A stretch of 64,000 nucleotides of DNA from Rheinheimera sp. 4Y26 (GTDB taxonomy: Bacteria; Pseudomonadota; Gammaproteobacteria; Enterobacterales; Alteromonadaceae): NCBI RefSeq assembly GCF_025245835.1, contig NZ_JAOBWS010000004.1:1-64000 (forward strand), in the 5' to 3' direction. Shown here piece by piece: positions 1-46,179 of the stretch. A model generated the notes under the pieces. That model was not told the origin of the DNA, searched no databases, and saw only the letters and a list, made by a program, of their open reading frames with translations. The translations under genes and the position numbers were made by a program. Position 1 is the first letter of the stretch; every line of letters starts with the position of its first letter.

Positions 1-77
1 GCACAAAGCACAAAGCACAAAGCACAAAGCACAAAGCACAAAGCACAAAGCACAAAGCACAAAGCACAAAGCACAAA
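1..77. repeat. Heptanucleotide tandem repeat, at least 11 copies
   Basis: Eleven uninterrupted copies of GCACAAA run from the first base of the window to 77, so the true array may be longer. It lies about 110 bp upstream of the palindrome and start of the hydroxyproline operon. Perfect short repeats of this kind change length by slippage. Since the array is not inside a recognisable gene here, any effect would be on promoter spacing or on a gene off the left edge. Confidence 0.95.
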
Positions 78-187
78 CAGCCTGTGGTAGCGCGTTTTAT
101 TGCCTCGCATCCTTCAGCAATTTTTGCTGCTGGTGGTTTGGGTGTCCTGACTATTTTTTGGCAAAAGCCGTTTATTTCCCTTCAAAT

Positions 188-203
188 ATATTGTATACAA
201 TAT
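188..203. promoter_or_regulatory. Perfect 16-bp palindrome, candidate operator of the hydroxyproline operon
   Basis: ATATTGTATACAATAT is a perfect inverted repeat ending about 40 bp before the likely GTG start at 244. The TTGTATACAA core resembles operators of FCD-type GntR regulators, which often control amino acid and sugar acid catabolism. No GntR gene is in the window, so the regulator would be encoded elsewhere. The palindrome is seen directly; the family assignment is inference. Confidence 0.55.
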
Positions 204-243
204 TCTTATTCAATCGGAATCAGCTTTGTTACAGGACTTTTGT

Positions 244-1323
244 GTGTCAAAAAATGCATTTGCTTTATGGCAGCCGCCTTCAGACTGGCAGCAGATCAGT
301 TGTTTAGATTGTCATACCGGTGGCGAACCGCTGCGGATTGTGACCTCAGGTTTTCCAGCCCTTCACGGCGACACTGTGCTGGCACAGCGGCGTGACTGTC
401 AGCAACGCTTTGACCATTTACGCCGTGCCCTGATGTTTGAACCCAGAGGCCATGCCGATATGTATGGCTGTATTATTCTGCCGCCTGAACGCAGCGACAG
501 TGCTTTTGGGGTGTTGTTTTTGCACAACGAAGGCTACAGCACCATGTGTGGCCATGCCATGATAGCGCTGGCCAAAGTGGCGGTGGAAGCCGGTGTGGTG
601 CCAGCCGCTTATCCGATAACACGCTTTAAGGTGGATGCACCTTGCGGTCAGATCCAGCTGTATGCCGAACTGGCGCCGGCGGCTCAAAGCAAGTCGGATA
701 ACAACTATGCAGTGCAGCCCCAGGTGCAGCGCTGCTGGTTCGACAATGTGCCTTCATTTGTCCTGGCCGCCAATCAGCAAACGCAGGTACCCGGCATAGG
801 CGCTGTGCCTTATCAGCTGGCTTATGGCGGGGCTTTTTACGCTTATGTGGAGGCCCAGGCTATTGGCCTTGATTTGGATATCAGCAATCACAGGCAAATT
901 ATTCGTTACGGCGAGCTGATTAAGCAGCAGCTGCTGGCTGAAATCTCGGTGCAACATCCTTTTGCCGATGATTTGAGTTTGTTATATGGCGTGATTTTTA
1001 CCGCACCTTCGGCAAAAAACGGCGTAGCGCAGCGCAACGTTTGTGTATTTGCCGATGGCCAACTTGATCGCAGTCCAACCGGCAGTGGCGTGTCCGGACT
1101 TGCCGCTTTGTTGCATCAACAAGGCAAGCTGGAGCCGGGACAGAGCATCCGGATTGAAAGTATTGTCGGCTCCGAGTTTAGCGTGGTTATTCAATCACTT
1201 TGTAATTATGGCCCTTATCAGGCGGTGATCCCTCAGGTGGCCGGCACCGCTTATGTTACGGCAATTCAGAACTTTGTGTTTGACCCGGCTGACCCTGTTG
1301 CAGAAGGATTTATTTTCCGATGA
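244..1323 (+). CDS. trans-3-hydroxy-L-proline dehydratase (proline racemase family)
   Basis: The product is a 359-residue member of the proline racemase fold family. The first catalytic position is Cys102 in STMCGHAM. The second, where racemases and epimerases have Cys in SPCGTG, is Thr279 in DRSPTGSG. That Cys/Thr pair is the known signature of trans-3-hydroxy-L-proline dehydratase, which makes delta1-pyrroline-2-carboxylate. The GTG at 244 is preferred over the in-frame TTG at 226 because AGGA (233-236) lies seven bases upstream of it. The stop overlaps the next start as ATGA. The downstream reductase-like gene would complete conversion to L-proline. The activity assignment is from family knowledge; the residues are seen here. 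Confidence 0.85.
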   Translation: MSKNAFALWQPPSDWQQISCLDCHTGGEPLRIVTSGFPALHGDTVLAQRRDCQQRFDHLRRALMFEPRGHADMYGCIILPPERSDSAFGVLFLHNEGYSTMCGHAMIALAKVAVEAGVVPAAYPITRFKVDAPCGQIQLYAELAPAAQSKSDNNYAVQPQVQRCWFDNVPSFVLAANQQTQVPGIGAVPYQLAYGGAFYAYVEAQAIGLDLDISNHRQIIRYGELIKQQLLAEISVQHPFADDLSLLYGVIFTAPSAKNGVAQRNVCVFADGQLDRSPTGSGVSGLAALLHQQGKLEPGQSIRIESIVGSEFSVVIQSLCNYGPYQAVIPQVAGTAYVTAIQNFVFDPADPVAEGFIFR

Positions 1324-2525
1324 ACACCACTATTCCAATGAAAGCTGAGCCTGGCTTTACAAATCACAATGCAGATAACCGCACATACAGCAGCGCAGAC
1401 AAAGCTGCCGGCAAGATGAGCGCGCCGCAATTTGCGCAAAGGTTAAGCCGCTTTCGCTATCAGATGGTGCAGGCCGGTCAGGATGCGGCGCTTGTTTTTT
1501 CGCCGGTGAATTTGCGTTATTTATTTAATTACAGCGGTGAAGCGCTGATGGCCATTGTCAGCCCCTCAGCTGTGGTGCTGGTGACCGATTATCGTTTTAT
1601 CGCACAGGCAAGTCAGGAGGCGCCGGCAGAGCTTCAGTTGAAATGTTATTGCCGTGACCGTGACCGCGAAAGCCTGGCGCAGGTGATTGCAGCACATCTT
1701 TTGCAATTTAAAGCACGCCGGGTCTGGTTCGAAGACAGTGATATCAGTGTGCTGCAATGGCGAGCCATTTGTGAAGGCAACGGCCTGATTGAATTTAGTC
1801 CTTGTCCGCCGCATCTGGCGGCGCAGCGTATGGTGAAAGATGAATGGGAGGTGGTGCAGATTGAACAGGCTGCGGCCATTGCCGATCTGGCATTGGAGCG
1901 TGCTCTGCCGCTGTTGCAGGTGGGGGTCAGTGAGCGGGAATTTGCCACTGAGCTTGAATATCAGCTGAAAAAGGCCGGCGCTGAAGATTTTTCTTTTGCC
2001 ACTATTTTGGGTTTTGCCGAACGTTCCGCCTTACCTCATGCCTTGCCTGGTAGTAAAAGACTGAAAAAAGGCGACTTGATAGTGCTGGATTTTGGCGCTG
2101 TGGTAAATGGCTACCGCTCAGATATGACCCGAAGTTTTGTCTGCGGCAAAGCCAGCCCTTTGCAACAACAAATGTACAACGCTGTGTTTAACGCGCAGCG
2201 GGCTGCGCTTGACGCAGTGCGTGCCGGTATCAGCGGTGCTGCACTGAATAACATTGCCGCCGATGTGCTGGCCGCTTCGCCTTTTGCCAAAGATGCCGGG
2301 CCTGGTCTTGGTCATGGGGTGGGTTTGCAGCTGCACGAACAGCCTTTTCTCGGCCCTTTGTGCCGGCAGTTATTGCCGGAAAATGCCGTGATCACTATTG
2401 AACCCGGTATTTATATCACCGACTTTGGTGGCGTCCGGATTGAAGATGACGTGCTGGTAACCAAAGAAGGTTGCCGTATTTTAACCAAAGCCGCTAAACA
2501 ATTTGAATTGCCAGAGAGGTTGTAG
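1320..2525 (+). CDS. M24 family Xaa-Pro dipeptidase/aminopeptidase-like protein
   Basis: This 401-residue protein has a creatinase-like N-terminal domain (about residues 35-165) and a pita-bread metallopeptidase domain (about 180-395). The usual two-metal ligand set is visible: Asp in VLDFGAV, Asp in RSDMTRSF, His in GLGHGVGLQLHEQP, Glu in ITIEPGIY and Glu in VRIEDDVLV. Enzymes of this type cleave Xaa-Pro or Xaa-hydroxyproline bonds. The first 30 residues are hydrophilic and not obviously part of the fold. It is translationally coupled to the dehydratase and followed after two bases by the next gene, so it probably releases (hydroxy)proline from short peptides in the cytoplasm. Prolidase versus aminopeptidase P cannot be told apart from sequence alone. 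Confidence 0.85.
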   Translation: MNTTIPMKAEPGFTNHNADNRTYSSADKAAGKMSAPQFAQRLSRFRYQMVQAGQDAALVFSPVNLRYLFNYSGEALMAIVSPSAVVLVTDYRFIAQASQEAPAELQLKCYCRDRDRESLAQVIAAHLLQFKARRVWFEDSDISVLQWRAICEGNGLIEFSPCPPHLAAQRMVKDEWEVVQIEQAAAIADLALERALPLLQVGVSEREFATELEYQLKKAGAEDFSFATILGFAERSALPHALPGSKRLKKGDLIVLDFGAVVNGYRSDMTRSFVCGKASPLQQQMYNAVFNAQRAALDAVRAGISGAALNNIAADVLAASPFAKDAGPGLGHGVGLQLHEQPFLGPLCRQLLPENAVITIEPGIYITDFGGVRIEDDVLVTKEGCRILTKAAKQFELPERL

Positions 2526-2527
2526 CC

Positions 2528-3532
2528 ATGCTGATGCTCAATGGTGCGCAAGTCAGCGCGTTCCTCGATTACCCGTCGTTAATTCAGGCCTTGCATCGGG
2601 GTTTTGCTGCGGAATTTACCGCACCGCCGCGCCTGTTGTATCCACTGTCGGCAGGTCAGCACGACGCTTTTGCACTGTTGCCGGCCTGGAATGAACGTTA
2701 TCTCTGTGTCAAAGCTTTTACTTATTTGCCGCAAAACGCGGCCAAAGGCCGGTCGGTGTTGCATTCACAGCTGATGCTATTTGCGCGGGAAAGTGGTGAG
2801 CCACTCGCTTTTATCGACGGTGTAGCTGTGACCTGCGCCCGCACCGCAGCAGTGTCGGCACTGGCGGCCTTTCATCTGGCAAAACCTGATGCGAGCAGTT
2901 TGTTATTGCTGGGTACCGGCAATCTGGCGATGCCGCTGTTACGGGCACATCTGGCTATCAGGCCGCTTCGTCACATCACACTGTGGGGGCGAAATGCCGT
3001 CAAAGTGAAGGCGCTTTGCGAGCAGGCGATAGCAGAGCTGCTGCCGCTGTATCCTGACCTGCATATTCAGATTGCCGACGATGTGGAGAGCGCACAACAA
3101 ACACATCAGATCATTGTCAGTGCAACAGCTTCAGCAGAGCCATTGGTGTTTGGCGAGCTTGTTGCTGCCGGTACTCATGTCGATTTACTTGGCAATCACA
3201 ATGTGGATAAACGCGAATGTGACAGTGCTTTGGTGCAACAAGCGCGGGTTTTTGTCGATGATAAAAACAATGTGCTCAGAGAAGCCGGCGAGCTGTTGTT
3301 GCCGATAGCTGAAGGTTGTTTTACTGACAGCCAAATTCAGGGCGATTTGGCGGCCTTGTGCCGGGGCGGTGATTTACCTGTTGCGGGGCAAACCAGAACT
3401 CAGCTGCCGCCCGCACGGCTAAACCACAGTGACATTACCTTGTTTAAGTCGGTCGGCACTGCGCTCAGTGATTTGCTTTGTGCCGCTTTGGTCTATGAGC
3501 GCAAGCTCGCGAAGGAGCCGCAGAGCAGATGA
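2528..3532 (+). CDS. Ornithine cyclodeaminase/mu-crystallin family protein, likely pyrroline-2-carboxylate reductase
   Basis: The 334-residue product has the family's N-terminal substrate half (FIDGVAVTCARTAAVSALAA, residues about 97-116) followed by a Rossmann fold with LLLLGTGNLA at about 122-131. Members include ornithine cyclodeaminase, alanine dehydrogenase and delta1-pyrroline-2-carboxylate reductase. Placement directly after a trans-3-hydroxyproline dehydratase points to the reductase, which turns that enzyme's product into L-proline with NAD(P)H. GAGAGG upstream of the ATG serves as ribosome site, and the stop overlaps the next ATG. The family call is firm; the precise substrate is inferred from context. 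Confidence 0.8.
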   Translation: MLMLNGAQVSAFLDYPSLIQALHRGFAAEFTAPPRLLYPLSAGQHDAFALLPAWNERYLCVKAFTYLPQNAAKGRSVLHSQLMLFARESGEPLAFIDGVAVTCARTAAVSALAAFHLAKPDASSLLLLGTGNLAMPLLRAHLAIRPLRHITLWGRNAVKVKALCEQAIAELLPLYPDLHIQIADDVESAQQTHQIIVSATASAEPLVFGELVAAGTHVDLLGNHNVDKRECDSALVQQARVFVDDKNNVLREAGELLLPIAEGCFTDSQIQGDLAALCRGGDLPVAGQTRTQLPPARLNHSDITLFKSVGTALSDLLCAALVYERKLAKEPQSR

Positions 3533-5319
3533 GCATGTTGATATCAGAATCGACCACAGAGCCGGTTGCAGGCCAGCACCCGGCAGCACGCGCCGATGGG
3601 CCCGGCTCTGCTGCTGTGGCAAAGCGAAAAACCGCGCGCAGTGCTTTTCCGGCGGCTTTTTATCTGGCCAATGGTATGGAAATTTTTGAGCGGTTGGCCT
3701 GGTATGGTTTTTTTACCTTGTCGTCGTTATATCTGACCAGCCCGTTAAGTCAGGGCGGACTGGCTTTTAGTGAACAACAACGGGGATTTGTGCAGGGCAT
3801 GATCCCGTTTTTGCTGTATTTATTGCCGGTGCTGACCGGTGCCATGGCCGACAGATATGGCTACAGGCGCATGTTTTTATTGTCTTTTATGCTGATGACA
3901 CCGGGTTATTATCTGCTTGGTCAGGTGCAGGAATTCTGGACTTTTTTTGTGGTGTTTTTGCTCGTTGCACTTGGCGCCGCCTGTTTTAAACCTGTGGTGG
4001 TGGGCACAGTAGGGCGCACTACCGACAACAGCAACAGAGGCCTTGGCTTTGGTATTTTTTATACCATGGTCAATATTGGTGGTTTTATCGGGCCATTGGT
4101 TGCAGGTTATGTGCGCGCCATCAGCTGGGACTGGGTATTTGTGATGTCGGCGTTCTGGATCAGCCTGAACTTTATTCCGGCTTTACTCTGGTACAAAGAG
4201 CCAGCGCTGACAGATGTCGAAAAAGCAAACAAAACCAAAGATTTACCGCTACTGCAGGAAATTCAGCTGGTGCTGGGCAATGGCCGGCTGGCGATTATGG
4301 TGCTGCCGCTGTTGCTGCTGTTAATGTTCAGCAGTTTAACGGCGCTGGTTTTTTGGCAAATTGCTGCGATTGCCGGTTTGTGGGTCACGCTCAATGCAAG
4401 CTGGAGTCTGTTGCTGTCGGCTGCCAACATTAAGGCAACACGCTGGTATTCATCGCCGATGAAGGTCGGCAATAAAGCTTTTGTCTGGTATTTATTGATC
4501 CTGACCGGTTTCTGGACCATCTACAACCAGCTGTTTATTACAGTACCGCTTTTTATCCGCGACTTTGTTGATACCCGGGATTTGGTGCAGGCTATAGCGC
4601 AATTTGCGCCGTCCTGGCTGGATTATCTGGCGGTGGTGGATATCAAGCAGCTGGCGCAGCTGTTACCCGGCCTTGCTGATGCTTATCAGCAGCAAAGTCA
4701 GAGTCTTTTGCAAATCAGTCAGACTTTGCATCACTACAAAGTGCGGGTTCCCACCGAAGAGCTGGCGCCGGCACTGCAGGCACTGGCACAACAACAAACC
4801 GATGCCGCAAGCCTCGCCACAGCCTGGCAACAGCAGCACCGGCAGCTGAATCCGGAATATATTGTGAATCTCGGGTTTGCGCTGATAGTGCTTTTGCAAA
4901 TTGCCATCAGTTTGGCCATTGCACGGATGCCGGCGTTGCCTGTTCTGGTGGGCGGCACCCTGGTGCTAAGTGCCGGCTTATTTTGTTTTGGTGTCAGTGG
5001 TCTGTTGCCTGTTGGTGGTTTTGCGATAGCGGGTGCTGTGTTGTTATTTTCGCTTGGCGAAATGCTGGCATCGCCGAAAAGTCAGGAATATGTAGCAGCA
5101 ATTGCACCCGGCCATCAGACAGCTATGTATATGGGATATTATTTTGTGGCTATGGCGCTTGGTTATTTATTTGCCGGTTTATTGTCGGGCTGGGCTTATC
5201 AGTTGTTTGCGATAGAGCAGCAACAGCCAATGTTAATGTGGACTTTTTTTGCTTCATTGGGGCTTGTCACCTCATTGATGCTGTTTTGGTTGCATTATTC
5301 GGTGGCCAAAGCGCATTAA
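3529..5319 (+). CDS. POT-like major facilitator, probable peptide/proton symporter
   Basis: This 596-residue membrane protein begins with a roughly 45-residue hydrophilic leader, then NGMEIFERLAWYGFF, which resembles the TM1 ExxER-type motif of proton-dependent oligopeptide transporters. The next loop has ADRYGYRRMF, the MFS motif A. About 12 hydrophobic segments are visible. A long hydrophilic stretch of roughly 110 residues (about 345-455) interrupts the second half and is unusual for the family. It overlaps the reductase gene by four bases and closes the operon, which supports uptake of proline- or hydroxyproline-containing peptides for the M24 peptidase. Substrate is inference. Confidence 0.72.
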   Translation: MSMLISESTTEPVAGQHPAARADGPGSAAVAKRKTARSAFPAAFYLANGMEIFERLAWYGFFTLSSLYLTSPLSQGGLAFSEQQRGFVQGMIPFLLYLLPVLTGAMADRYGYRRMFLLSFMLMTPGYYLLGQVQEFWTFFVVFLLVALGAACFKPVVVGTVGRTTDNSNRGLGFGIFYTMVNIGGFIGPLVAGYVRAISWDWVFVMSAFWISLNFIPALLWYKEPALTDVEKANKTKDLPLLQEIQLVLGNGRLAIMVLPLLLLLMFSSLTALVFWQIAAIAGLWVTLNASWSLLLSAANIKATRWYSSPMKVGNKAFVWYLLILTGFWTIYNQLFITVPLFIRDFVDTRDLVQAIAQFAPSWLDYLAVVDIKQLAQLLPGLADAYQQQSQSLLQISQTLHHYKVRVPTEELAPALQALAQQQTDAASLATAWQQQHRQLNPEYIVNLGFALIVLLQIAISLAIARMPALPVLVGGTLVLSAGLFCFGVSGLLPVGGFAIAGAVLLFSLGEMLASPKSQEYVAAIAPGHQTAMYMGYYFVAMALGYLFAGLLSGWAYQLFAIEQQQPMLMWTFFASLGLVTSLMLFWLHYSVAKAH

Positions 5320-5358
5320 GTCACACAAGGATGTCGCCAAAGACAGTTACTCCAGACT

Positions 5359-5382
5359 GCGGCAATCAGCTTTGATTGCCGC
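5359..5382. terminator. Hairpin between convergent transporter and LysR genes
   Basis: GCGGCAATCA (5359-5368) and TGATTGCCGC (5373-5382) form a 10-bp stem with a 4-base loop. It overlaps the stop codon of the minus-strand LysR gene and lies 40 bp after the plus-strand transporter. There is no good T-run on either side, so termination would be weak. Confidence 0.45.
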
Positions 5383-6271
5383 TGCCGATTTTGCTTTGCA
5401 AATATTGCAGCACCAGTTTCAGGCCGGCTTTCATATGGGTGCGATGTGGATACACCAGATGAACGGGTAAAGGTTTTGGCATATAGTCGGGTAGCACAGG
5501 CACCAGCAAACCAGACTGCAACTCTTCTTCCACCTGATAGCGGGTAACAAACATCAGCCCCATGCCAGCCAGCACTGTGGGTTTGGCGGCTCTGTTGCTG
5601 TTGGTATAAAAAGGGCCGCTGGCCGGTACTTTGAGCACCTGGCCATCTTCCAGAAACTCCCAGCTGGTTTCCGGCCCGCCACTGCCGGTAGAGATACAGG
5701 CATGGTTGGAAAGATCCCGCGGATGCTGAGGCACACCCTGTGTTGCCAGATAAGCAGGGGATGCCACCAGCACTATCGGCAGATGGGTTAGTGGCCGGGC
5801 TATTAAACTGGAACTGGGTAATTTGCCAAAACGAATGGCCAAATCCACTTCATCAGCCACCAAATCAACCATTTTGTCATTGAGTTCAAGTTCTAACTGC
5901 AGTTTGGGATAGCGCTGTAACAACTCAGGGATCAGTGGTGCTATCACAGTGGAGCCATAAGTGACGGCCACACTAATGCGGATACTGCCAACAGGTTCAT
6001 CCCGAAGTTCAGCCAGATGATGCTCGGCCTGATCGGCCTGGCGCACCACCTGCTGACAATAAGCAAAAAAAGCCTGACCTTCACTGCTGAGTCTGAGCTG
6101 GCGGGTGGTTCTTTGTAATAAACGCACTGCCAGATGTTGTTCGAGCCGGGCTATGGCTTTACTGACAGCCCCTTTGGACATGCCAAGCGCAATAGAAGCC
6201 TGAGTAAAACTGCCACTTTCTACCACCCTGGCAAAAATGGCCATATCGCTGAGTCTTTGTAATAACGACAT
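5366..6271 (-). CDS. LysR family transcriptional regulator
   Basis: The 301-residue protein has an N-terminal winged helix-turn-helix (about residues 8-65, including GSFTQASIALGMSKGAVSKA) followed by a LysR effector domain (about 92-295). Its N-terminal type, with ARVVESGSFTQA, is common among LysR proteins that control small redox, quinone or efflux genes. It converges on the hydroxyproline operon and diverges from the small gene at 6430. A palindrome at 6326-6347 lies in the divergent intergenic region, where autoregulation and control of the small gene would be expected. The ligand is unknown. Confidence 0.9.
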   Translation of the reverse strand: MSLLQRLSDMAIFARVVESGSFTQASIALGMSKGAVSKAIARLEQHLAVRLLQRTTRQLRLSSEGQAFFAYCQQVVRQADQAEHHLAELRDEPVGSIRISVAVTYGSTVIAPLIPELLQRYPKLQLELELNDKMVDLVADEVDLAIRFGKLPSSSLIARPLTHLPIVLVASPAYLATQGVPQHPRDLSNHACISTGSGGPETSWEFLEDGQVLKVPASGPFYTNSNRAAKPTVLAGMGLMFVTRYQVEEELQSGLLVPVLPDYMPKPLPVHLVYPHRTHMKAGLKLVLQYLQSKIGSGNQS

Positions 6272-8797: not shown

Positions 8798-10285
8798 TTA
8801 CGCCAGCAAATCGGCAAGGGGCAGTTGCTGTGGCGCTTGTCCCTGATGTTGCCAGGCGATCGTGGCCGTCATGTTATCCAGTGTCAGGCTTAAACTGGCC
8901 CGATGACCGCCGTGCTGCCAGTTCAGCTGATACAGGTCGGGCGCTAAAGTCTGGCTAAAGTCACCCTCAAAAGCTTTCAGGGTTCGGCGCAGTTTGATGA
9001 GTTTTATTAGAGCTTGCACCACTGGTTTTTGCAGTGCCTGCTGCAGGCTGGTCTCATCAAAATACGGCCTGTTAATGTCACGGCCAACCGCGGTTTGCTT
9101 TAACAGTGCAACGTCATTTTCCGCCGCCAGCAGTCCGCCATAATAAATCTGGCTGATGCCAGGGCAAAACAGCTGAATAGCGCGCGCCAGCAGATAGTGC
9201 TGATTGTTACGGCCCAGTGCATCATAAAAACTGCAATTGACCTGATACAAATCAACGTTATTGGCAGCATTGCCTGTTGCCAGTTTTGAGCTGCCGCAGC
9301 TGTTGTGATGGATTTTTTCGACCAGACTATCCAGCTCCGGATCGGTGAGAAGTCCGGGCTCGCCCTGATAATCGGCAGCGTCAACAATGCCAATGCCGTC
9401 ATGGGTGTCGAGCACGGTAATACAATTGCGTGGCGCTATATCAAGCCAGGTTTTTAATGCCTGAGCGTTGCCGCTGAAAATTGTATGCAATACCAGGGGG
9501 GGCAGCGCAAAGTCGTAGACCATGTCACAGCGTTTGGCGATTTCTATCTGCGTTTTATGGTAACCATGAATTTCAACCAGGCAGGTCATGCCACGCGCCT
9601 TGGCTTGTTTTGACAGTTTTTCAATAAATTCAAAGGTTTCAGGCAGCATAAAACAACTGCTGCCGGCTTTTTTAATGGCATAACCAGCCGCGTCCAACCG
9701 GATATATTTAACACCATGGTCGGTAAAACGCTGCAAAATGGCCTGCAGGTAAGCTTCACCCTGAGCGGAAGTTACATCGATATCAATCTGATTGGCGGTA
9801 AAAGTGGTCCAGAATGCTTTGGTGTCACCATTGGCTAAGCGAATATCGGTAAAGCAGGGGGTTGGCCTTGGCCGGTAAATGGCATCGAGCTGAGCCTGAT
9901 CCGGCTGCTGACCAAACACTTTGTCACGGGTTAAAAACAGTGGCCAGTAGGGGGAGCTTTCGCCTTGTTGCAGGACATCCAGAAATTGCGGTGACTGCGC
10001 CGACATATGATTAACAATCATATCCGCCATAATGGGGTAATCGGCCGCCAGACGTTCAATATCAGCCCAGCTACCTAAGCGGCTGTCCACTGCGGTATGG
10101 TCTGTCGGGTCAAAGCCTGCGTCTTCACCGTCAATAGGCGGGTAAAACGGCAGCAAATGCACAGCATCAAACAAGCCGGCCAGTTGCCCCTGAAGTAGCC
10201 TGTGTAAATCTGTTATTTTTCCGCCACTTAATCTATCAACATAGGTGATTAACTGGATCTGGTTGGTCTGTACAGCATGGGTCAT
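8798..10285 (-). CDS. scrP: Sucrose phosphorylase (GH13_18)
   Basis: The 495-residue enzyme closely resembles bifidobacterial sucrose phosphorylase: QLITYVDRL near the N-terminus, AGFDPTDHT, IYRPRP, nucleophile Asp198 in IRLDAAGY, acid/base Glu238 in CLVEIH and Asp296 in LDTHDG. It converts sucrose and phosphate to glucose 1-phosphate and fructose in the cytoplasm, saving ATP. The ATG at 10285 is chosen over a longer frame from 10360 because AGGAAG precedes it and the longer version would code through the operator at 10314-10327. It is divergent from the MFS permease. A 6'-phosphate-specific variant is possible but fits poorly with a non-PTS permease. Confidence 0.92.
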   Translation of the reverse strand: MTHAVQTNQIQLITYVDRLSGGKITDLHRLLQGQLAGLFDAVHLLPFYPPIDGEDAGFDPTDHTAVDSRLGSWADIERLAADYPIMADMIVNHMSAQSPQFLDVLQQGESSPYWPLFLTRDKVFGQQPDQAQLDAIYRPRPTPCFTDIRLANGDTKAFWTTFTANQIDIDVTSAQGEAYLQAILQRFTDHGVKYIRLDAAGYAIKKAGSSCFMLPETFEFIEKLSKQAKARGMTCLVEIHGYHKTQIEIAKRCDMVYDFALPPLVLHTIFSGNAQALKTWLDIAPRNCITVLDTHDGIGIVDAADYQGEPGLLTDPELDSLVEKIHHNSCGSSKLATGNAANNVDLYQVNCSFYDALGRNNQHYLLARAIQLFCPGISQIYYGGLLAAENDVALLKQTAVGRDINRPYFDETSLQQALQKPVVQALIKLIKLRRTLKAFEGDFSQTLAPDLYQLNWQHGGHRASLSLTLDNMTATIAWQHQGQAPQQLPLADLLA

Positions 10286-18183: not shown

Positions 18184-18295
18184 GGTAAATTGAGGTGACG
18201 TTTTGCACCCAACGCAGCAGACGTTTTATTTGAGCGGTCCGGCAACGCTCCGCTTGTTTATTGCGAACATCAAATGGCGGGTAGAACCTGCAAAT

Positions 18296-18389
18296 TTCAG
18301 TTACAAAAAACCGACATCAAGCTGGCTTTTAAGTTGGCAGCTTGAGTCGCCCGGTTTTTTTGAGAGCGAACCGGCGACCTTCGGGTTAT
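18296..18389 (-). repeat. Degenerate tRNA-fMet/terminator repeat unit A
   Basis: On the minus strand this unit has sequence like the anticodon-loop-to-T-arm part of tRNA-fMet (plus-strand anchor CGACCTTCGGGTTAT), a CCCGG/TTTTTT-interrupted middle, and a copy of the tRNA terminator hairpin. No acceptor-stem pairing is possible, so it is not a functional tRNA. Confidence 0.75.
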
Positions 18390-18420
18390 CTGTTCGGCAT
18401 GTCTGTTGTCATTACCAAAT

Positions 18421-18513
18421 TTCAGATACAAAAAAACCGACATCAAGTCGGCCTTTAAGTTGGTTGCTGGAGTCGCCCGGTGTTTTAGACAGCGAACCGG
18501 CGATCTTCGGGTG
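18421..18513 (-). repeat. Degenerate tRNA-fMet/terminator repeat unit B
   Basis: Second copy of the same unit, 126 bp after unit A measured at the shared CCGACATCAAG. It is the most altered in the tRNA-like part (GATCTTCGGGTGG). Confidence 0.75.
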
Positions 18514-18535
18514 GTGAAGCAGTGAGCCTGAATTT

Positions 18536-18628
18536 TAGATACAAAAAAACCGACATCAAGTCGGCTTTTAAGTTGGTTGCTGGAGTCGCCCGGTTTTTTT
18601 GAGAGCGAACCGACGACCTTCGGGTTAT
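18536..18628 (-). repeat. Degenerate tRNA-fMet/terminator repeat unit C
   Basis: Third copy, closest in sequence to the intact gene in its GAACCGACGACCTTCGGGTTAT-like end, though the T-arm/acceptor region carries the same CCCGG/T-rich replacement as units A and B. Confidence 0.75.
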
Positions 18629-18673
18629 TTATTTCGAGTACCAAAGTACAGATACAACCCTGAATTTCAGATA

Positions 18674-18700
18674 CAAAAAAACCGACATCAAGTCGGCTTT
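18674..18700 (-). terminator. Terminator of the tRNA-fMet pair
   Basis: On the minus strand GCCGAC-TTGAT-GTCGGT is followed by seven T directly after the tRNA 3' end. The same hairpin is repeated in units A to C. Confidence 0.85.
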
Positions 18701-18705
18701 TAAGT

Positions 18706-18782
<77 letters not shown>

Positions 18783-46001: not shown

Positions 46002-46057
46002 TGCTCATGTGCTCATGTGCTCATGTGCTCATGTGCTCATGTGCTCATGTGCTGGTG
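46002..46057. repeat. Octanucleotide tandem repeat TGCTCATG
   Basis: Six perfect copies (46002-46049) and one degenerate copy (TGCTGGTG) lie between the divergent MocR and EamA genes. Eight is not a multiple of three, so copy changes would shift any frame reading through them, or change promoter spacing. Confidence 0.95.
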
Positions 46058-46119
46058 TGCCGTTTTGCCTTGTTGGGGGCTGCGCTAAAAGCGTTTCACC
46101 GCCACACACCACCTTTGAG

Positions 46120-46179
46120 TGAATCAGTGCCTGAATCAGTGCCTGGATCAGTGCGTGAATCGTTAAGTGGATCAGTGCA
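46120..46179. repeat. Imperfect 12-bp tandem repeat, five copies
   Basis: Five 12-bp units of consensus TGAATCAGTGCC lie directly before the ribosome site of the EamA gene. Units 1 and 2 are identical and the others differ at one to several positions. Confidence 0.9.

Follow-up and report, generated by a model that had tools for sequence, protein, structure and literature searches.

The operon and its products

The DNA analysed here is a 64,000-nucleotide stretch of Rheinheimera sp. 4Y26 (contig NZ_JAOBWS010000004.1, positions 1 to 64,000), called the window below. Near its left end, which is also the contig end, four open reading frames (ORFs) on one strand (226-5319) form an operon encoding, in this order, a proline racemase-family protein predicted to be a trans-3-hydroxyproline dehydratase (t3HypD), an M24 peptidase, an ornithine cyclodeaminase (OCD)-family reductase and a POT-family transporter (Table 1). 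The first two ORFs overlap by 4 bp, as do the last two, and 2 bp separate the second from the third, in agreement with a preliminary description of this DNA. That description had also named the four families correctly, as judged by Pfam, but it listed the reductase before the M24 peptidase, whereas the reductase gene follows it. A convergent LysR gene (5366-6271) forms the right-hand boundary of the operon. A promoter and terminator scan of positions 1-5400 of the window gave no more signals than were found in shuffled sequences. For the dehydratase, GTG 244 is more probably the start than the TTG at which the ORF opens, because AGGA lies upstream of it and the frame of the closest relative (L098) aligns from there; residue numbers below count from this GTG.

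The catalytic pair of the dehydratase consists of Cys102, within the motif MCGH, and Thr279, within SPTGSG, which bears out the earlier assignment to the C/T type, and this pair is common to 33 of 33 aligned homologues within the taxonomic family. The best match in PDB by sequence is the trans-3-hydroxyproline dehydratase of Thermococcus litoralis (6r76, 389 bits), followed by the human enzyme, and the predicted fold (pLDDT 90) superposes on 6r76 with a TM-score of 0.91 at 49% identity. In the human enzyme, Asp74, Tyr76, Cys104, Tyr241, Arg270 and Thr273 are reported in the literature to act in ligand binding or closure; by motif position, all six match columns that are invariant in a 13-sequence alignment. 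Sequence and model thus designate a predicted trans-3-hydroxyproline dehydratase. Among distant homologues, a regular-expression count of the C/T residues was used for named Gammaproteobacteria only, as it failed on many Bacteroidota sequences.

The genome encodes one other Pro_racemase protein, which, like its homologues, has a Cys/Cys pair instead of Cys/Thr. It scores above the curated cut-off for 4-hydroxyproline epimerase (575 versus 376 bits). Clustered with its gene are those of a DHDPS-family protein, an aldehyde dehydrogenase, a GntR/FCD regulator and an FAD oxidoreductase, the last of these divergent. This cluster is the classical 4-hydroxyproline (4-Hyp) pathway. PutA is encoded elsewhere in the genome. 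The OCD protein exceeds the curated cut-off of NF004793, the model for delta1-pyrroline-2-carboxylate (Pyr2C) reductase (336 versus 322 bits), and is related to the solved Pyr2C reductase of T. litoralis (PDB 6t3e).

Other names have been given to such proteins. Leyn et al. 2016 (PMC5343134) described an alternative epimerase, hypY, and assigned COG2423 to ornithine use, and in passages of a 2021 study of the bone microbiome (PMC7883544) the OCD gene of Colwellia is labelled P5C reductase/ornithine cyclodeaminase. Under these labels, the Rheinheimera racemase-family enzyme would be an alternative epimerase of 4-Hyp, the OCD protein would act as an ornithine cyclodeaminase, and the operon would serve collagen proline and 4-Hyp peptides in general; the presence of M24 and OCD without t3HypD in some 4-Hyp-only genomes would fit such a role. 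We nevertheless hold this to be quite unlikely, given that threonine replaces the second catalytic cysteine throughout the family homologues, that a separate C/C epimerase exists in the same genome, and that the OCD protein passes the threshold for a Pyr2C reductase.

In the peptidase, Pfam finds both the Creatinase_N and the M24 domains, the five metal ligands follow a D-D-H-E-E pattern (read by eye from the alignment), and the nearest PDB relatives are proline dipeptidases. For the transporter (model pLDDT 78), the top 45 Foldseek matches in PDB are all POT peptide transporters; its sequence resembles those of solved peptide transporters weakly (57 bits). Its motifs ExxER, in transmembrane helix 1 (TM1), and FKP are invariant across 12 relatives, and a helical insert some 90 residues long (near 350-440), between predicted TM7 and TM8, is kept in 12 of 12 aligned relatives.

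Table 1. Features at the left end of the window
Feature	Position	Strand	Basis or remarks
(GCACAAA)11 heptanucleotide tandem array	1..77	.	left end of window = contig end
Perfect 16-bp palindrome ATATTGTATACAATAT, predicted operator of GntR/FCD regulator HypR	188..203	.	operon promoter; rare core; conservation
t3HypD (predicted dehydratase)	244..1323	+	Pfam Pro_racemase 330 bits; Cys102/Thr279; best PDB match 6r76; ORF opens TTG 226
M24 metallopeptidase (Xaa-Pro dipeptidase/aminopeptidase type, YpdF/PepQ-like)	1320..2525	+	Pfam M24 202 bits, Creatinase_N
OCD-family NAD(P)H reductase, predicted delta1-pyrroline-2-carboxylate reductase	2528..3532	+	Pfam OCD_Mu_crystall 149 bits; NF004793; PDB 6t3e
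POT/PTR2-family transporter, predicted proton-coupled di/tripeptide importer	3529..5319	+	MFS_1 99 bits; PTR2 34 bits, cut-off 27

A palindrome shared with collagenase and 4-hydroxyproline genes

The core of the palindrome in the operon promoter, ATTGTATACAAT, has exactly four copies in the 4.08-Mb genome. Besides the one in front of the operon, there is one in the 4-Hyp cluster, which encodes the GntR regulator, at the point from which its two halves diverge; another precedes an M9 collagenase gene (C28:72292), and the last a DUF885 peptidase gene (C5:50765). Near variants stand in front of another M9 collagenase gene, another DUF885 gene and the gene of a TonB-type receptor that has a carboxypeptidase-regulatory domain. 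A genome search with the operator pattern returned ten sites, versus one for the reversed control pattern. The 10-bp core is found upstream of the dehydratase-containing unit in 27 of the 33 family loci, compared with at most one for 19 palindromes of the same half-site composition, and the promoter block of the operon is conserved with three other Rheinheimera loci. Hydroxyproline regulons of HypR, a GntR/FCD regulator, have been predicted in Alteromonadales (PMC5343134). We predict that the palindrome of the operon is a HypR binding site, and this distribution of sites indicates that the operon is very probably under the same switch as the collagenases and the 4-Hyp cluster.

We left three further operator-like sites out of the regulon: C11:812741, in front of an AraC-type gene, C9:4987, and window position 9478, which lies within an ORF. 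The two DUF885 proteins (L014 8008-9735 and L017 8282-10306) have lipoprotein-like starts, with an operator-like site near each start. Such sequence features suggest a role for the DUF885 proteins in the breakdown of collagen peptides.

On its left side, the operon is separated from the contig end by the palindrome and the heptanucleotide array. An identical GCACAAA array ends contig C2 (L189 5582-5658), where a gene for a 320-residue M9-domain protein (242 bits) lies about 150 bp from the contig end and faces away from the array. In other Rheinheimera loci, an M9-type gene and the dehydratase operon diverge from each other; the order M9 gene, array, operator and operon is therefore the most likely one here, in which we infer the C2-C28 join across the array. 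The array (at least 11 copies) breaks the assembly; it could vary in length and change expression. Other tandem repeats of the window are one of about 113 bp in 3.5 copies (18291-18717) and short ones with units of 8 and 12 bp (46002-46178).

Distribution and co-occurrence of the genes

The nearest named records to the operon are from Rheinheimera. Gene order in related genomes had been proposed as a check in the preliminary description, and the order t3HypD-M24-OCD, with or without POT, does recur across seven named genera: Rheinheimera, Colwellia, Shewanella, Pseudoalteromonas, Undibacterium, Roseateles and Pelomonas. The transporter gene comes first (POT-t3HypD-M24-OCD) at nine family loci and in Colwellia. 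In Rheinheimera it comes last (t3HypD-M24-OCD-POT), as it does in Undibacterium flavidum, where the gap preceding POT is longer. Shewanella, Pseudoalteromonas, Roseateles and Pelomonas have no POT gene adjacent to t3HypD-M24-OCD, nor do two family loci with an upstream TonB-type receptor gene. A second arrangement, POT-OCD-M24, in which OCD and M24 are only distantly related to those of the operon, is found in other genera and is often marked by the operator. A POT orthologue stands in one operon with distant OCD and M24 genes at L072 3672-7632, L208 13837-17823 and L213 8157-12343.

Across 148 genomes, M24 and POT orthologues track proline-racemase-family genes even when these are not adjacent: the POT orthologue occurs together with t3HypD in 19 of 21 cases (p about 7e-13), and for the M24 orthologue 21 of 22 cases also have some gene of the proline racemase family (p about 1e-10). 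These p-values treat related genomes as independent. In a tree of M24 proteins, those of the operon stand apart from paralogues; its groups were labelled by score to the window protein, for loci near t3HypD only, and the tree is not used as evidence.

Could the M24 and POT proteins be passengers, the enzyme pair using free 3-hydroxyproline while the POT-like protein moves an unrelated substrate into or out of the cell? Substrates vary in the wider POT/NPF family, and the low sequence score against solved peptide transporters would allow it. This explanation appears highly improbable to us, in view of the cohesion of the four-gene set across genera, of the association of POT with t3HypD even at a distance, and of the second HypR-marked arrangement, where POT again accompanies an M24 and an OCD protein, there distantly related ones.

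The M24 peptidase is also found outside the dehydratase context. Some relatives lacking t3HypD have M24, sometimes with OCD, next to a GntR gene, and in several of them the operator lies between. Large clusters at L199, L200, L202 and L203 combine the 4-Hyp pathway, a TonB receptor, M9 collagenases, the GntR regulator and M24, some also with OCD. A role of the peptidase in 3-hydroxyproline (3-Hyp) use only is weakened by orthologues in genomes having only the 4-Hyp epimerase; because of these, we think that the peptidase and the transporter probably have a general role in the use of hydroxyproline and proline peptides.

Proposed pathway and known systems

The preliminary description read the operon as a device for importing collagen-like peptides, cleaving them and converting trans-3-hydroxyproline to proline. 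The families, the fold, the common operator and the co-occurrence of the genes lend support to this proposal, and with a high degree of confidence we regard the operon as the module of a collagen-utilisation regulon that performs these steps under HypR; we infer the activities, the transport specificity, the regulator binding and the induction from what is observed: the genes present, their families, the catalytic residues, the places where the operator occurs and the genes that co-occur.

The pathway probably operates as follows. Secreted M9 collagenases would set free short peptides of collagen, Gly-3Hyp-4Hyp among them, for uptake by the predicted TonB-dependent receptor and POT permease. 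The predicted M24 peptidase would cut Xaa-imino bonds, the C/T enzyme would dehydrate free trans-3-hydroxyproline to pyrroline-2-carboxylate, and the OCD-family reductase would convert this to L-proline, which would then pass to PutA, while 4-Hyp would be handled by the separate epimerase cluster. We predict that the GntR-family repressor HypR, whose gene belongs to the 4-Hyp cluster, binds the 188-203 palindrome and controls all these units.

Clostridial M9 collagenases trim Gly-X-Y tripeptides, an activity for which ColH is known (PMC13284217). The 3-Hyp of collagen is located in Gly-3Hyp-4Hyp, a tripeptide fully resistant to plasma peptidases, and it is reportedly abundant in invertebrate collagens (PMC9166765). 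A di/tripeptide permease and an Xaa-imino peptidase would be needed to deliver 3-Hyp to the dehydratase and the reductase. One may speculate further that POT and M24 are tuned to Gly-3Hyp-4Hyp, as a dedicated 3-Hyp salvage system in which the POT insert, predicted to be periplasmic, is part of the specialisation; we find this doubtful.

Several observations weigh against the assignment of the operon to trans-3-hydroxyproline use. The dehydratase reaches neither of the two curated cut-offs for t3HypD equivalogs (NF045511, 341 against 540 bits; NF047722, 189 against 550 bits), even if NF045511 is its top-scoring model, and its label therefore rests on the residues and the T. litoralis structure. 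The best NCBIfam models for the M24 protein, PepQ and YpdF, also score below cut-off, and a dipeptidase or an aminopeptidase would both fit. The substrate of the POT protein is not readable from its sequence, which leaves di/tripeptide import as a prediction. Finally, the M24 orthologue, sometimes with OCD, is retained in genomes without the dehydratase that have only the 4-Hyp epimerase, so that neither of these two genes is bound to 3-Hyp exclusively.

Parts of the system are known from more distant organisms. The T. litoralis pair likewise combines a C/T dehydratase with an OCD-family reductase yielding L-proline, but its cluster, as described, contains proline dehydrogenases. Peptidases and OCD genes lie near the t3HypDs of Bacilli (eLife 2014, PMC4113996), in neighbourhoods with TRAP or ABC transport systems, whereas Rheinheimera has a POT permease and M24 within the operon.

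Closer parallels exist in marine relatives. The preliminary description held that the layout is not the standard one for free hydroxyproline catabolism, but it has precedents, as the same gene types are listed by Leyn et al. (PMC5343134) and in the Colwellia paper (PMC7883544). As in Rheinheimera, the predicted HypR regulon of Leyn et al. brings the 4-Hyp cluster with its GntR regulator, secreted collagenases and a TonB receptor under one predicted operator, together with an OCD gene (COG2423), a YpdF-type peptidase and a di/tripeptide permease. It differs in that the second racemase-family gene is named an alternative 4-Hyp epimerase and OCD is linked to ornithine; in Rheinheimera, the dehydratase and OCD fit a trans-3-Hyp route and share one operon with the peptidase and the permease. 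The collagen cluster of Colwellia BB5, C. piezophila and C. psychrerythraea, according to passages of PMC7883544, likewise unites an M9 collagenase, an MFS transporter, a YpdF aminopeptidase, an OCD-type reductase, an epimerase and a hydroxyproline dipeptidase. Those passages name no 3-hydroxyproline dehydratase, whereas the Colwellia loci that we retrieved read POT-t3HypD-M24-OCD. In Rheinheimera, by contrast, the operon is apart from the 4-Hyp cluster, and the dehydratase comes first.

An operon joining permease, peptidase and 3-Hyp enzymes would explain how collagen-degrading bacteria recover 3-hydroxyproline, and we suggest a fresh look at how the enzymes of published collagen clusters and HypR regulons are labelled. 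The system itself is largely predicted already in related marine bacteria, of which the Rheinheimera operon is a clear further example; what is added here is a consistent trans-3-Hyp assignment together with regulon evidence in Rheinheimera.

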